A stretch of 36,457 nucleotides of DNA from an uncultured Oscillibacter sp. (lineage in GTDB: Bacteria > Bacillota > Clostridia > Oscillospirales > Oscillospiraceae): positions 1-36,457 of the forward strand of contig CAMNRF010000015.1 in the NCBI GenBank assembly GCA_946551795.1. Direction: 5' to 3'. Positions 3,179-28,505 of this stretch are shown here, one piece after another. Below the pieces are notes generated by a model, which searched no databases, had not been told where the DNA came from, and saw nothing but the letters and a program-made list of their open reading frames with translations. Position 1 is the stretch's first letter. Each line of letters begins with the position of its first letter. The translations under genes were made by a program, and so were the position numbers.

Positions 3179-3203
3179 TTAAAAATAGATTCCAAATCAA
3201 AAA

Positions 3204-3241
3204 GACGGGAGGGAACCGCACTGGGTTCTCTCCCGTTTTTG
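3204..3241 (+). terminator. Intrinsic terminator after the rsiV-like gene
   Basis: ACGGGAG..AACC/GGTT..CTCCCGT stem followed by TTTTT. Confidence 0.85.
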
Positions 3242-3347
3242 ATATTTGCGTTACAAAAAGTCTGCCCGAATCAAAGCAATTCCCCCGATGCCGTCGCAGA
3301 GGCTTGTTGGATTACCCAGTCCCCGCAGCGCGCGAAAGCTCTTTTTG

Positions 3348-3427
3348 GATACTTTTCACTCAAGAGTATAAGGGCCTCTAAACGTCAGAGACGTTAAGAG
3401 GCCCTATATCTCTCGAGAAAAAGTATC
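3348..3427. repeat. 80-nt near-palindrome (approximately 38-bp imperfect inverted repeat) ending on the sufB stop codon
   Basis: Left arm GATACTTTTCACTCAAGAGTATAAGGGCCTCTAAACGT; reverse complement of right arm GATACTTTTTCTCGAGAGATATAGGGCCTCTTAACGT. Confidence 0.85.
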
Positions 3428-5293: not shown

Positions 5294-5938
5294 ATGAAGA
5301 GCAAAGGAGTGGCTTTTATGGCAGAGAACATACATAGTCCCGAGGTGTATGACTTCCGGCGGTACGACCGGGTCTGGCAGCGGGTGGCCCCGGATCTGGA
5401 GCCCTATCCCGGCGTGAACGCGGCGGCGGCACCGGCGCCCCAGCCGCAGGCGGCCCCCGCCGGGCAGCTGGCCCGGCAGGAGAGCCAGCTGCCCGGGGCC
5501 TCCCAGGACCCCTGCTGCATGGGCAGCGCCGCGGCGGAGATGCTGGAGGTGCTCACCGGATTCATCGAGGAGGAGCTGGAGGACCGGCGGTACTATCTGG
5601 CCATGAGCCGCCAGGCCCCCGCCTGGGCCCGGCAGCGGCTGCGGGACATCGCCGCCGACGAGGGGGCCCACGCCCGGCGGCTGATGGCGGCCCACTATCT
5701 GATCACCGGCCAGTGCTACCGGCCCGCCATTGCCGGCGGCGCCGTCACCATCGGGCGCTGGTGTCCGGCCCTGCGGGAGCGGTATCACATGGAGGCCTGC
5801 AACGGCATGAACTACGCCCGCTCCGCCGACGGCACCACGGACCCGTGTCTGGCGAAGCTCCTGAACGAGCTCAGCGAAGACGAGTACCGCCACGCCGGGG
5901 AGCTGATGGCCATGCTGGAGCGGTCCATCCAGGGATAA
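5294..5938 (+). CDS. Ferritin-like domain protein
   Basis: Paired E..H helices: LTGFIEEELEDRRYYLAMSRQAP...DIAADEGAHARRLMAAHYLITG and LLNELSEDEYRHAGELMAMLERS. Confidence 0.7.
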   Translation: MKSKGVAFMAENIHSPEVYDFRRYDRVWQRVAPDLEPYPGVNAAAAPAPQPQAAPAGQLARQESQLPGASQDPCCMGSAAAEMLEVLTGFIEEELEDRRYYLAMSRQAPAWARQRLRDIAADEGAHARRLMAAHYLITGQCYRPAIAGGAVTIGRWCPALRERYHMEACNGMNYARSADGTTDPCLAKLLNELSEDEYRHAGELMAMLERSIQG

Positions 5939-5944
5939 AAGAAT

Positions 5945-5984
5945 GGGAGGAGCGGTTGACCCCGCTCCTCCTTTCTGGTATAAT
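5945..5984 (+). promoter_or_regulatory. Sigma-A promoter for the DUF2461 gene nested in a hairpin/terminator
   Basis: TTGACC(5956-5961)-N17-TATAAT(5979-5984); TTGACC is exactly the loop of GGAGGAGCGG[TTGACC]CCGCTCCTCC. Confidence 0.8.
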
Positions 5985-6014
5985 CGGCAGGAAAAACGAC
6001 GATGGGAGCGCGCC

Positions 6015-6695
6015 ATGTTTACCGGATTTACAGACGAGACCGTGGACTTCATGTGGGGCATCCGCTTCAACAACGAGCGGACGTGGTTTGAGGCCCACAA
6101 GGAGATCTACCTGACCCATTTCTACCGCCCCATGTGCGACCTGGCGGACGAGCTGTACGCCTTCATGCTGGAGCAGAGGCCGGACAGCGGATTGATCCGC
6201 AAGGTGACGAGAATCTACCGGGACGCCCGGCGGCTCCACGGCCGGGGGCCCTATAAGGAGAGCCTGTGGCTCTCTGTGGAGCAGGCGGGGGAGCAGTGGA
6301 CCGCCCGGCCCACCTTCTGGTTCGAGCTGATGCCGGAGGGGTGGACCTGCGGCATGGGCTACTGGATGCCCAAGCCCGCCACCATGGCCAAGCTCCGGGC
6401 CCGGATCACCCGGGACCCCGGGACCATGGAGAAGCTGACGGGGAAGCTGGCGGGGCAGACGGAGTTCACTCTGGAGACCCAGGACTACAAGCGGCCCAGG
6501 GCCGCCGCGCCGTCGCCGGCGCTGGAGCCCTGGTTCCGGGCCAGGTCCTTTACCATCATTCACGAGGACAAGCTGACGGAGGAGCTGTTCAGCCGGGACA
6601 TCGTGGACCGGGTGAAGGCGGGCTGGAAGTTCCTGCTGCCCTATTATGACTATTTCGTCACCCTGGACGGGGACCCGGACCCCGGTGAAATATGA
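6015..6695 (+). CDS. DUF2461 family protein
   Basis: MFTGFTDETVDFMWGIRFNNERTWFEAHKEIY...RIYRDARRLHGRGPYKESLWL; start inferred downstream of the promoter at 5956-5984. Confidence 0.82.
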   Translation: MFTGFTDETVDFMWGIRFNNERTWFEAHKEIYLTHFYRPMCDLADELYAFMLEQRPDSGLIRKVTRIYRDARRLHGRGPYKESLWLSVEQAGEQWTARPTFWFELMPEGWTCGMGYWMPKPATMAKLRARITRDPGTMEKLTGKLAGQTEFTLETQDYKRPRAAAPSPALEPWFRARSFTIIHEDKLTEELFSRDIVDRVKAGWKFLLPYYDYFVTLDGDPDPGEI

Positions 6696-15264: not shown

Positions 15265-15321
15265 GCGGCGCACTATAATGCTTTGAAGAAGGACCATTGG
15301 CTGACGAGGGGCGGCGCGCCT

Positions 15322-15581
15322 GCCAGCGGCGGTGCTGGCCCCGAAAAACCGGATTGCCTTTTGCCGGCCCATGGGTTTGCAGGGAGCGAGAAGGAGTCTT
15401 CTTGCTCCCTGAATTCGATCTATCGTCACCGCGGTTGAAAAGAAGCATTTACTTCTCTTCAACCCTGGGCGCGTATGCGCCCCAGGAGCCGTGAAACGGC
15501 TTGGCGGTGGACTCAGAACCCGGCACATTTGATGTGCCGCGGGCGATGTCCGCCTTGAAAAGCGGTATGCCGATTTTCAAG
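15322..15581 (+). repeat. Seven-hairpin array between ftsL and the PBP gene
   Basis: Stems at 15322-15339, 15380-15411, 15433-15464, 15464-15485, 15487-15501, 15521-15539, 15554-15581. Confidence 0.8.
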
Positions 15582-15640
15582 TGTTTCGACGATTTCAATT
15601 TCAATCTATCACGCCGGAGGGCAGGAGAAGGAGAAGTTCC

Positions 15641-20863: not shown

Positions 20864-22090
20864 ATGGTGGAGACGAGGCGGCGGAGGCGGCCCATCAGCC
20901 GGGAGGAGGCGTTGGCCCGGCAGGAGAAAAAGCGGCTTCGGAAGGAACGGGAGGAGCTGAGCCGGGAGCTGGCCAAGGGGCCCATCGACCTGCCCTTCTG
21001 CCTGCTGGTGCTGCTGCTGATGGGCATCGGCCTTGTCATGCTGCTCTCCGCCAGCTTTCCCTCCGCCTACTACGACAACAACGACCCCGTCAAATATTTT
21101 CGGCAGCAGGGCGTCTTTGCCATCGCGGGCGTTGCGGCCATGCTCTTTATCGGCAAGATCAACTACCAGCGGTTCCGGGGCGCGGCGAAGCCGCTTTTGT
21201 ACCTCTCCATCGTGCTGCTGGTGCTGGTGATCATCCCCGGCAACCCCATCGCCCTCACCCGGAACAACGCCACCCGCTGGCTGGGCATCCGGAACACCAG
21301 CTTCCAGTTCCAGCCCTCGGAGGTGGCCAAGATGGCGGTGGTGCTGTACTTCTCTGACACCATCTCCAAGAAGAAGGACAAGATGCACACCACCCGGTAC
21401 GGCGTGGCGCCCTATGTGCTGATCCTGGGCGTGCTCTCCATTTTGATGATGCTGGAGCCCCACCTGTCCGGCACGGTGCTGCTGCTGGGAGCCGGCGCGG
21501 TGCTGATGCTGGTGGGCGGCATCAACCTCACCTGGGTGGCGGCGGCGGTGGCCGGCGCCGGCGGCGTCGCGTTTTTGATGTTCTCCGGCGTCATCAAGTA
21601 CGGCCAGTCCCGCCTTGCCATGTGGCAGAACCCCTGGCTGGACCCCCGGGGCGACGGCTACCAGCTGGTGCAGAGCCTGCTCTCCATCGGTTCCGGCGGC
21701 CTCTGGGGCGTGGGCCTTGGCAGGAGCCGGCAGAAGTTTTTGTACCTGCCGGAGGAGCACAACGACTTCATCTTCGCCATCGTCTGCGAGGAGCTGGGCC
21801 TCATCGGGGCCACCATCATCATGCTGCTCTTCGCGGCGCTGATCCTCCGGGGCTACTGGATCGCCCTCCACGCCCGGGACCGCTTCGGGAGCCTGCTGGT
21901 GGTGGGCGTCACCACCCTGATTGCCATGCAGACCTTTTTGAACATCGGCGTGGTGACGGGCCTGCTGCCCACCACGGGCATCTCCCTGCCCTTTTTCAGC
22001 TACGGAGGCACGGCGCTGCTGATTCAGCTGGCGGAGATGGGCATTGTGCTGTCGGTCTCGCGGCAGATGAAACCTGCGAGGGCGGGGTGA
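20864..22090 (+). CDS. ftsW: Lipid II polymerase FtsW/SpoVE (SEDS family)
   Basis: GPIDLPFCLLVLLLMGIGLVMLLSAS; FQPSEVAKMAVVLYFSD; HNDFIFAIVCEELGLIGA; TTGISLPFFSYGGTALL. Confidence 0.95.
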   Translation: MVETRRRRRPISREEALARQEKKRLRKEREELSRELAKGPIDLPFCLLVLLLMGIGLVMLLSASFPSAYYDNNDPVKYFRQQGVFAIAGVAAMLFIGKINYQRFRGAAKPLLYLSIVLLVLVIIPGNPIALTRNNATRWLGIRNTSFQFQPSEVAKMAVVLYFSDTISKKKDKMHTTRYGVAPYVLILGVLSILMMLEPHLSGTVLLLGAGAVLMLVGGINLTWVAAAVAGAGGVAFLMFSGVIKYGQSRLAMWQNPWLDPRGDGYQLVQSLLSIGSGGLWGVGLGRSRQKFLYLPEEHNDFIFAIVCEELGLIGATIIMLLFAALILRGYWIALHARDRFGSLLVVGVTTLIAMQTFLNIGVVTGLLPTTGISLPFFSYGGTALLIQLAEMGIVLSVSRQMKPARAG

Positions 22091-22093
22091 AGG

Positions 22094-22386
22094 AAAGAGG
22101 GGACTACGTCCCCCCTTTACGCTCCGCCGGGCTTTGCCCGGCTCCGCTATTCCCCCTGCTCTACCGGGGGACTGGGGGCGGACAGAACTGCTGGAGTTCT
22201 GCCGGCGGCGCGCTCTGACACCAGTGAGGTCCACTCACTGGTGTGTGCGCCCCAAGGGTGCACGGGTCTCGGTATTTTCGCCACGTACACGCCGCGGCGA
22301 AAATGATTTCATTATTTTGATTTGCCCTTGGCAAATCAACCAGGAACCTGCGGTTCCCTGGCCCCTCCCTTAGCGCCTGCGGGCGC
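22094..22386 (+). repeat. Ten-hairpin array between ftsW and murG
   Basis: Includes GCCGGGC/GCCCGGC, CAGAACT/AGTTCTG, ACACCAGTGAG/CTCACTGGTGT, GTGCGCCC/GGGTGCAC, ATTTTCGCC/GGCGAAAAT, TTGATTTGCC/GGCAAATCAA, CCAGGAACC/GGTTCCCTGG, GCGCC/GGCGC. Confidence 0.85.
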
Positions 22387-22414
22387 GGGATCGGGGACTG
22401 CTTTGGAAAAGGAG

Positions 22415-23554
22415 ATGGTTGCCTTGCCTCAAAACCTGAAACGGGTCATCTTCACCTGCGGCGGGACGGCGGGGCATATCAACCCGGCCATCGCCCTGGC
22501 ACAGCTGATGTACGGCAGGGACCCGGAGACAGCGTTCCTGTTCGTGGGGGCGGAGCGGGGGCTGGAGAAGGAGCTGGTCCCCAAGGCGGGGTACGACTTT
22601 CGCACCGTCCACATCTCCAGCTTCCACCGGTCCTTCAGGCCCAGGGAGATCCGGCACAACCTGGTCTCCGTCTGCAACCTCCTGCGGGCCCCCCGGGAGG
22701 CCCGGGCCATTCTGCGTGCTTTCCGGCCGGACGCGGTGATCGGCACCGGCGGCTACGCCAGCTTTCCGCTGGTGAAGGCCGCCGCCAAGGCCGGCATCCC
22801 CACGGTGGTCCACGAGTCCAACATGGTGCCCGGGCTCACCACGGAGATGCTGGAGCCCTTCGCGGACCGGATTCTGGTGGGCTTCGAGTCCTGCCGCCGG
22901 CACTACCGGCACCCGGAGAAGGTGATTGTCACCGGTACGCCGGTGCGGGGGGACTTCTTTGACCTGACAAAGGAGGAGGCCAAGCGAAAGCTGGGCGTGG
23001 ACGACGGGCGGCCCCTGATCGTCTCCTTCTGGGGGTCCCTGGGAGCCTCCGGCATGAACCGCCAGATGGCGGATTTTCTGGCGTTGGAGGCGAAGAAGGA
23101 GCCCTTCCACCACATTCACGGCGCGGGGGAGACGGGGTATCCCCTCCTGCTGGCGCTGCTGGGGGAGAGGGGCGTGGACCTGCGGGACCACCCGGCGCTG
23201 GATGTCCGGGAGTACATCTACGACATGGCGGCGGCCATGCGGGCGGCGGATCTGGTGATCTGCCGGGCCGGGGCCTCCACCATCAGCGAGCTGACGGCCC
23301 TGGGCGTCCCGGCACTGATCGTGCCCTCCCCCTACGTGACCAACAACCACCAGGAGAAGAACGCCCGGGCCCTGGAGGAGGCCGGCGCGGCGGCGGTGCT
23401 GCTGGAGAAGGACAGCACCGGCCAGGCCCTGTTCCAGGCCGCCTGCGGCATCCTCCACGACAAGGAGCGCCGGGCCGGCATGGAGAGGGCCATGGCGGCC
23501 CTGGGCATCCGGGACGCGGCGGAGCGGATTTACCGGACGGTTTTGGAGGTGTGA
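22415..23554 (+). CDS. murG: UDP-N-acetylglucosamine transferase MurG
   Basis: VIFTCGGTAGHINPAIALAQ; IGTGGYASFPLVKAA; CRAGASTISELTALGVPALIVPSPYVTNNHQEKNA; TTG at 22424 is a better-spaced alternative start. Confidence 0.96.
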   Translation: MVALPQNLKRVIFTCGGTAGHINPAIALAQLMYGRDPETAFLFVGAERGLEKELVPKAGYDFRTVHISSFHRSFRPREIRHNLVSVCNLLRAPREARAILRAFRPDAVIGTGGYASFPLVKAAAKAGIPTVVHESNMVPGLTTEMLEPFADRILVGFESCRRHYRHPEKVIVTGTPVRGDFFDLTKEEAKRKLGVDDGRPLIVSFWGSLGASGMNRQMADFLALEAKKEPFHHIHGAGETGYPLLLALLGERGVDLRDHPALDVREYIYDMAAAMRAADLVICRAGASTISELTALGVPALIVPSPYVTNNHQEKNARALEEAGAAAVLLEKDSTGQALFQAACGILHDKERRAGMERAMAALGIRDAAERIYRTVLEV

Positions 23555-27065: not shown

Positions 27066-27070
27066 GCCTT

Positions 27071-27278
27071 GTTTGATAAATGGCGAAATGCCCAACGGCG
27101 AGAGATTTTTCCGACTCGCCAAGAGCCGCCGCAAGCGGCGGTTGCTCGCTGGACGCGCCTGCGGGCGCAGTCGCCAATCAAGGCGATTTTCCTTGCCATA
27201 CTCTGTGTATGGCAAGGAAAATCAACGCAGAGTGGCGGAAAAAGATCCGCTGTTTGGGCGTTTTATCATTTTTCAAAC
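27071..27278. repeat. MITE-like 208-bp element with 25-bp imperfect terminal inverted repeats
   Basis: Ends GTTTGATAAATGGCGAAATGCCCAA and TTGGGCGTTTTATCATTTTTCAAAC (20/25 complementary); internal 17-bp perfect stem GATTTTCCTTGCCATAC/GTATGGCAAGGAAAATC. Confidence 0.7.
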
Positions 27279-27296
27279 ATGGTCTGAAAAATCTGG

Positions 27297-27329
27297 AAAA
27301 ACCCGCGGGCTTTTGCCTGCGGGTTTTCT
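27297..27329 (+). terminator. Intrinsic terminator distal to ftsZ
   Basis: AAAACCCGC..GC-TTTT-GC..GCGGGTTTT. Confidence 0.85.
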
Positions 27330-27470
27330 CTGTGCCCTTGAAAATCGGACAAGGCAGTCTGTGCCTTGGACACGCTGCCGCTTTTTGCAAGGTGTGTTTT
27401 CGCGGCGGAAGCAAATCATAAGAGTGCCGCCGGCGAGGTTTTGCCGGCGGATGTGATTTGATCAAAAGGG

Positions 27471-28505
27471 GTGATCGCATTGTATGAAGTACCAAAACAC
27501 ACAAAGGGACTGCTGCGGGGCGGCGCGGCGTTCCTTCTGGCCCTGCTCCTCTGTGCCGGAGCGCCCGCGAAAGCGGCGGAGGTGACGGGCGTTTTTTCAG
27601 ATGAGACCGCCCGGATGCTGGTGCCCGTGGGCCACACCGTGGGCATCAAGCTCTTCTCCCGGGGCGTGGTGGTGGTAAAGCTCAGCGACGGCGGCACGCC
27701 CGCCAGGAGTTGCGGACTGCGCACCGGGGATGTGATCGAGGAGTGCGGCGGAGCCGCGGTGACCTCCACCGAACAGTTCCAGTCCCTTCTCCAGGAGAAT
27801 GGGGGCTCTGAGACGGACCTCCAGGTCCGCCGGGACGGCGGCAGCATGACCCTCTCCGTGGCCCCCGCCCGGAACGACCAGGGCGTCTACTGCATCGGCG
27901 CCTGGATTCGGGACAGCATGGCGGGCATCGGCACCATGACCTTTTACGACCCGGCCACCGGCGTCTTCGGCGCCCTGGGCCACGGCATCACCGACGTGGA
28001 TACGGCGCTGCTGATGCCCTTTTCCAACGGCTCCGTTCTGCCCTCCACGGTGAAGGCCGTGAAAAAGGGCGAGGCCGGCGCCGCCGGAGAACTGCGGGGG
28101 GATTTTGACCTCACCCGGGATCTGGGCCGGCTGTACGCCAACACCAGCAGCGGCATCTTCGGCACGCTGGAGACCGACGGGCTGCGCTCCGACGGGGCCG
28201 TGCCCACCGGGCAGCCCAGGGAGGGCCCCGCGGTGATCCGCGCCAACGTCCAGGGGGACCAGGTGGCGGAGTATGACATTGACATCGTCAAGGTGATTCC
28301 CGGCGCCGGGGACGGACGGGACATGGTGCTCTCCGTCACGGACCCGGACCTCATTGCCGTCACCGGCGGCATTGTTCAGGGCATGAGCGGCAGCCCCATT
28401 CTCCAGAATGGGAAAATCGTGGGGGCCGTGACCCATGTCCTGTTGAATCAACCCACAAAAGGTTATGGAATTTCCATCGAAAATATGCTGAGCGCAGCGG
28501 GATAA
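27471..28505 (+). CDS. spoIVB: SpoIVB peptidase (S55 family)
   Basis: PDZ-like segment (ARSCGLRTGDVIEECGGAAVTS); S55 motif GHGITD, GIVQGMSGSPILQNGKIVGAVTHVLLNQPTKGYGI; GTG start, TTG at 27480 as alternative. Confidence 0.94.
   Translation: MIALYEVPKHTKGLLRGGAAFLLALLLCAGAPAKAAEVTGVFSDETARMLVPVGHTVGIKLFSRGVVVVKLSDGGTPARSCGLRTGDVIEECGGAAVTSTEQFQSLLQENGGSETDLQVRRDGGSMTLSVAPARNDQGVYCIGAWIRDSMAGIGTMTFYDPATGVFGALGHGITDVDTALLMPFSNGSVLPSTVKAVKKGEAGAAGELRGDFDLTRDLGRLYANTSSGIFGTLETDGLRSDGAVPTGQPREGPAVIRANVQGDQVAEYDIDIVKVIPGAGDGRDMVLSVTDPDLIAVTGGIVQGMSGSPILQNGKIVGAVTHVLLNQPTKGYGISIENMLSAAG

Follow-up and report, generated by a model that had tools for sequence, protein, structure and literature searches.

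The hairpin array between ftsW and murG

The hairpin array in the ftsW-murG spacer of an uncultured Oscillibacter sp. belongs to a modular repeat family, not described before, whose copies are dispersed in the genomes of gut Oscillospirales. Where it lies depends on the stop codon of ftsW, the gene upstream, and on the sense orientation. We are highly confident of its identity as a dispersed repeat family that abuts stop codons. The stretch of 36,457 nucleotides analyzed here (the window) carries a division and cell-wall gene cluster (PBP, murE, mraY, ftsW, murG, murA, ftsZ), in which the ftsW-murG spacer extends from 22091 to about 22423. The initial annotation of the window reported ten hairpins in this spacer at 22094-22386, and all ten stems are present; the 11-bp and 10-bp perfect stems that it quoted are stems B and E, respectively. 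Its description of the stems as beads on a string held for most of them, which are serial and not nested. The features, all on the + strand, are as follows.

20912-22090 (start uncertain; alternative 20864), +: ftsW, upstream host gene; stop codon TGA at 22088-22090; FTSW_RODA_SPOVE domain (PF01098, E = 2.6e-100)
22094-22118, +: stem A, AAAGAGGGGAC-TAC-GTCCCCCCTTT; first stem, 3 nt past the ftsW stop codon
22120-22147, +: stem A2, CGCTCCGCCGGGC...; in long-form copies only
about 22151-22178, +: stem S3, CCCCC...GGGGG; imperfect; in long-form copies only
22183-22201, +: stem S4, CAGAACT-GCTGG-AGTTCTG; variable; in long-form copies only
22218-22244, +: stem B, ACACCAGTGAG-GTCCA-CTCACTGGTGT; 98.9% of cells paired in 102 copies (R1 model, below)
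22245-22263, +: stem C, GTGCGCCC-CAA-GGGTGCAC; exists in several allelic variants; both partners vary at 6 of 8 pairs
22264-22273, +: unpaired linker before stem D, GGGTC-nn-GGT; conserved in alignment A2, made by sequence only
22274-22304, +: stem D, the family core; fixed 7-nt loop TACACGC (family form G-YRCAYGY-C)
22305-22316, +: unpaired AT-rich D-E linker, GATTTnAATTT; conserved
22317-22339, +: stem E, TTGATTTGCC-CTT-GGCAAATCAA; both partners vary between copies at 9 of 10 pairs
22340-22361, +: stem F, CCAGGAACC-TGC-GGTTCCCTGG; recurs in other full copies
22373-22386, +: stem G, GCGCCTGCGGGCGC; similarity to the repeat stops at about 22389
22424-23554, +: murG, downstream host gene; Glyco_transf_28 N- and C-terminal domains

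Comparison with other genomes indicated that murG probably starts at the TTG at 22424, with a Shine-Dalgarno sequence AAGGAG at 22409-22414; the ATG at 22415 is an alternative. The folding energy of the array was far below that of shuffled sequence (z = -7.3): RNA folding of 22080-22400 gave -173 kcal/mol, compared to -135.9 +/- 5.1 kcal/mol for 100 dinucleotide shuffles, none of which folded as well. A promoter for murG inside the array was considered and rejected, the sole promoter-like match being on the - strand.

Copies and distribution

A search with the spacer recovered near full-length copies on two other contigs of the same genome (C53 and C63), partial copies on C21, C62, C1, C2, C94 and others, and many further copies in other genomes of the genus. 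The same beads thus recur at many loci, in many genomes and at varied positions, which the initial annotation had named as a check of its proposal. A covariance model of stems B-E (R1) had matches in 22 of 31 genomes of the genus, with up to 37 in each, and the other 9 had no copy. The window's own genome, which is 86% complete in 127 contigs, had 17 R1 matches, a few of them the same place on the other strand. The richest genomes held about 20-40 copies each, as sampled by best-match search rather than by exhaustive count, and no copy lay inside a called gene.

At the order level, 11 of 147 sampled genomes matched R1, all within two families; at the class level, under stricter filters, the matches among 291 genomes were the window's genome and one genome of the same family. 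The full form is typical of Oscillospiraceae of the Oscillibacter/Dysosmobacter type, and a shorter core of stems D and E was found in other genera and in one other family of Oscillospirales (f7). The exact core pattern was present in the GTDB species collection in Oscillibacter, Dysosmobacter, Scatomorpha, Evtepia, and unnamed Oscillospiraceae and Clostridia MAGs. Pattern matches in Burkholderiales, Nitrosomonadales and Acidobacteria were rejected as family members because a stem scan showed no stem around them. Plasmid and phage collections contained no match to the family; three IMG/VR contigs (L412, L413 and L414) had the exact core pattern and could be prophage flanks.

The window had no Rfam family match at the gathering threshold, and E-value scans of two copies and 14 loci returned weak matches at chance level only. 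The single gathering-level match was a T-box in locus L145, outside the element. Group II intron and HEARO-like RNAs were also considered, gave no family match and were set aside.

Each family element measures about 130-300 nt and has 5-10 hairpins. Stem A, at the stop codon, comes first, followed by A2, S3 and S4, optional and present in long forms; B; C; GGGTCnnGGT; D; GATTTnAATTT; E; and F. Copies from other genera and f7 differ in the modules before D, retain D-E, and have the motif AACTCTGCGAGGC after E. The loop of D occurs as G-TACACGC-C or as G-CACATGT-C / G-CGCATGT-C, and the arms of D can differ wholly (for example GTAAATTTCGC...GCCGAAATTTAC in L225) with the loop unchanged. In some copies (C62, G006) an extra hairpin is inserted in this loop. 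Loop positions 1 and 7 co-vary between two forms, T..C and C..T, and 58 of 102 copies have an A.C mismatch three pairs away from the loop; read on the opposite strand, the 1/7 pair is G.A or A.G and the mismatch is G.T.

Placement at stop codons in sense orientation

Genes were called with a home-made caller trained on ftsW and murG orthologues. Among 116 genus copies, 97 were in sense orientation between co-directional genes and 1 was antisense, a bias with a two-sided binomial probability near 6e-28; 14 copies were between convergent genes, 1 between divergent genes, and 3 at contig ends. In a mixed set, made up of 148 copies that had close neighbors, placement was co-directional and sense in 105, co-directional and antisense in 9, convergent in 29 and divergent in 5. 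The array-free intergenic background (n = 328) was 222 co-directional, 30 convergent and 76 divergent.

Of 114 genus copies, 108 had their first stem no more than 15 nt from the stop codon upstream (median 3-6 nt), that is, 94 of the 97 co-directional copies and 14 of the 17 remaining (convergent or contig-end) copies, compared to a hairpin that near in 64 of 192 array-free 3' ends. Stop adjacency holds in convergent pairs too, where the Shine-Dalgarno constraint is absent. In most other copies the homologue of stem A adjoins or contains the stop codon, and stop-codon bases were part of the stem in 49 of 197 copies of all kinds (for example [TAA]AGGGGGAGC..GCTCCCCCTTTA). Stop adjacency was looser in other genera (30 of 55).

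REP elements are the nearest kind known. The family shares with the REP and BIME elements of enterobacteria and pseudomonads that it consists of extragenic palindromes present in many copies per genome, in operons and 3' flanks, which is also what defines REPs and REPINs. REP/BIME elements number tens to hundreds of copies, and the share within 15 nt of a stop codon affects translation, according to PMC12306157; the same paper, citing its reference 17, states that ribosomes stall and translation falls at E. coli REPs less than 16 nt from a stop codon. The 108 genus copies above have their hairpin within that 15-nt distance, and almost the whole genus set obeys a stop adjacency that only a subset of E. 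coli REPs does. In contrast to REP/BIME, however, this family is much larger, has one orientation (97:1), lies nearly always at a stop codon, has a conserved 7-nt loop, occurs in different taxa, and has no link to RAYT.

Covariation of the stems

The stems were strongly conserved as structures across two sets of copies, so that neither outcome named by the initial annotation as refuting, a folding energy like that of shuffled sequence or stems that are not conserved, was obtained. Eleven pairs changed on both sides among 14 copies. Among 102 copies, aligned to the model, which leans towards structure, 97.0% of cells were paired and 24 of 40 pairs had double changes. Double-changed cells in these 102 copies numbered 541, compared to 149.5 in shuffles, and 0 of 500 shuffles reached the observed number. 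When partners were slid by 1-3 columns as a control, pairing fell to 36-51%. Pairing intermediates were rare. Structure that is kept while sequence changes probably reflects RNA-level control or a spacer element inside operons.

RNA under selection is expected to tolerate G-U pairs better. No G-U preference was found on the + strand in the 102-copy set, with 18 G-T compared to 27 A-C once one misaligned pair and the A.C pair that is fixed in stem D were left out; another tally outside D gave 38 G-T compared to 59 A-C. The missing G-U excess gives no pointer to selection on a + strand RNA in individual copies, and it also fits DNA-level correction by template switching, gene conversion or neutral decay.

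A proposed role at the ends of cistrons

We tentatively favor the explanation that the family is a REP-like, sense-strand intercistronic RNA element whose action is on termination of the upstream gene and on the 3' end of its mRNA, and which insulates the downstream gene. The array would be transcribed within the polycistronic mRNA and fold as a string of self-contained hairpins. Stem A, which would begin inside the footprint of the terminating ribosome, may slow or shape upstream termination and recycling, and the hairpin chain with the AT-rich D-E linker would separate the cistrons, with protection of the upstream 3' end, possible cleavage, and lost translational coupling downstream as candidate effects. 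If stem A acts in this way, the array at ftsW-murG would bear first on ftsW termination and the 3' end of its message and only indirectly on murG. New sites would arise by copying or by recombination between copies, and existing copies would be reshuffled module by module.

This explanation requires read-through because the hosts are operon pairs whose downstream genes demand it, and the terminator scan found no terminator-like site on the + strand of the window array. Against an RNA element stand the absent G-U preference, the weaker stop adjacency in other genera, and the 9 genus genomes that have no copy. Hosts such as pheS-pheT, whose subunits are needed in about equal amounts, also speak against a strong differential effect on expression.

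Small palindromic repeats are usually viewed as scattered regardless of direction. The present family obeys one sharp rule, sense orientation at a stop codon, in common gut bacteria, and its hosts are operons for the ribosome, glycolysis, tRNA charging and the cell wall. A broader proposal, which is speculative and on balance improbable, is that the family represents an undescribed class of orientation-specific intercistronic RNA elements at stop codons lineage-wide, read by a dedicated protein or by the ribosome via the invariant loop G-YRCAYGY-C, and that core operons of translation, glycolysis and the cell wall are retuned as copies are gained, lost or have their modules swapped. Dozens of natural replicas per genome and the matched empty sites of sister species offer a test of whether hairpins at stop codons tune operons.

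Filled, empty and re-used operon joints

Host sites are classical operon joints, such as argG-argH, pheS-pheT, rplA-rplJ, tpiA-gpmI and ftsW-murG; the gene names other than ftsW and murG were read from the protein sequences rather than assigned by a family search. Among the 116 genus copies, 31 of 56 site families were common to at least 2 genomes; argG-argH was shared by 6 genomes, pheS-pheT by 5, rplA-rplJ and yidD-yidC by 4 each, and tpiA-gpmI, hup-S4 and serC-serA by 3 each. A diverged copy was also present at ftsW-murG in G006, and the orthologous spacers of G007, G005, G003 and G008 were empty, at 20-33 nt. The hup-S4, argG-argH and ntpF-ntpA spacers were likewise short in several genomes. 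Likeness between copies was only slightly higher at shared sites (0.74) than at different sites (0.70), and the close pair G024 and G030 had exchanged whole hairpins at fixed sites. Modules turn over at sites that either persist or are used again, and both inheritance and re-insertion fit these data. Two other kinds of insert were seen at ftsW-murG. The spacer of G001 (L049) held a different, MITE-like insert of about 240 nt with inverted ends GAGTCTGTTTTAAAAC / GTTTTAAAACAGACTC, and those of G004 and G012 (L041 and L042) held another repeat type, with AT-rich TTAGGAGTTAGGAATT units around a GC hairpin.

The main rival to an RNA element is a selfish, non-autonomous repeat, MITE- or REPIN-like and without host function, with an unusual insertion preference and inert folding. 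Some enzyme would copy it directly behind stop codons in one orientation, the stems would serve movement only, and strong local folding would keep the insert harmless to the mRNA. We regard this as possible but rather unlikely. The patchy distribution among close species, the empty orthologous sites, copies limited to a few genomes (such as ntpF-ntpA in G000, the window's genome, and G024), the module swaps at the same site between near-identical species, and the lack of a G-U preference are all consistent with it. Insertion alone, however, leaves the recurrence of many operon joints across species unexplained. Neither terminal inverted repeats nor a target duplication was seen by eye at the five junctions inspected, where relatives were too diverged for base-exact ends, and no linked transposase was found.

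A RAYT or IS200-type transposase was considered as the mover and rejected: PF01797 matches, which are a mixture, had an apparent correlation with high copy number that vanished under a RAYT-specific search. RAYT of the NF047646 type was present in 5 of 31 genus genomes. The copy-rich G006, G030, G031, G034 and G035 (21-37 copies) lacked it, as did each of the four f7 genomes that have 18-23 copies, and 27 RAYT-positive genomes of the order were without the element. No D-type stem was found near the RAYT genes in loci L281-L283. Because RAYT misses the richest genomes and f7 and no D stem flanks it, we consider the element REP-like in kind yet not linked to RAYT. Single RAYT-type genes were located at L283 1279-1773, at L281 1444-1953, and on contig C52 of the window's genome at 5655-6260 (where the match is in two pieces); one lies between parE- and parC-like genes and one beside uvrB.

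In a REPIN, two REPs form an inverted doublet that has a cognate RAYT (PMC3116915). This family resembles the REPIN-RAYT system in being a structured, non-autonomous, extragenic repeat, but it has no doublet symmetry and RAYT presence does not track copy number. MITEs and BOX repeats of the pneumococcal type are short, non-coding, dispersed and modular, as is this family, which differs in its strict sense orientation; terminal inverted repeats or a target duplication were not recognized at the junctions compared by eye. Rfam structured RNAs have its covarying multi-stem structure with fixed loop and linkers; none matched as a family.

Other origins of the hairpins

The perfect pairing and the covariation could also result from DNA template switching (quasipalindrome correction) together with gene conversion between copies, rather than from selection on RNA or for mobility, in which case the arrays would be by-products of mutation in hairpins already present at 3' ends. 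Hairpins can arise and be maintained through template switching (PMC8794818), and gene conversion was an earlier proposal for REP evolution, to judge from the title of Higgins 1988 as it stands in the reference list of PMC12306157. Such a process would account for flips from C-G to G-C with almost no intermediates (57/45 at pair 72-130; 59/35/8 at pair 69-133, with none unpaired) and for the efp site, at which G004, G006 and G007 have a solo hairpin like stem A and the window's genome has a full array. A blind correction process, however, would not be expected to keep the D loop and the linkers fixed in different genera and in another family, nor to give many copies of one core at loci that are unrelated. 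We consider this origin improbable. The family offers a clear case in which to ask whether covariation is due to RNA selection or to template-switch correction.

A compound intrinsic terminator or attenuator between ftsW and murG is very improbable. The hairpins do lie behind stop codons in sense orientation, and a T-rich stretch follows stem D, but the + strand scan of the array was negative, copies lie between genes that need co-expression, and at hup-S4 the array sits between the stop codon and a native U-tailed terminator that has been retained behind it. A DNA-level element, such as a site for a nucleoid or topoisomerase-type protein on double-stranded or cruciform DNA, as for BIMEs, would suit the lack of RNA-specific G-U tolerance and the invariant loop-plus-flank sequence in D but is scarcely credible, since a double-stranded site needs neither covarying stems nor the 97:1 orientation nor stop-codon adjacency.

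Other hairpin-rich spacers in the window

Three other spacers of the window, at 15265-15640, 1568-1841 and 3179-3425, contain three or four strong hairpins each, and none was matched by R1. The ftsZ-spoIVB spacer (27066-27614, 549 nt) holds a second dispersed repeat family with six hairpins. Pieces 1-48 and about 106-220 of this spacer recur together in the same genome (C11, C18, C63 and C72), and this repeat also begins directly behind a stop codon, that of ftsZ.
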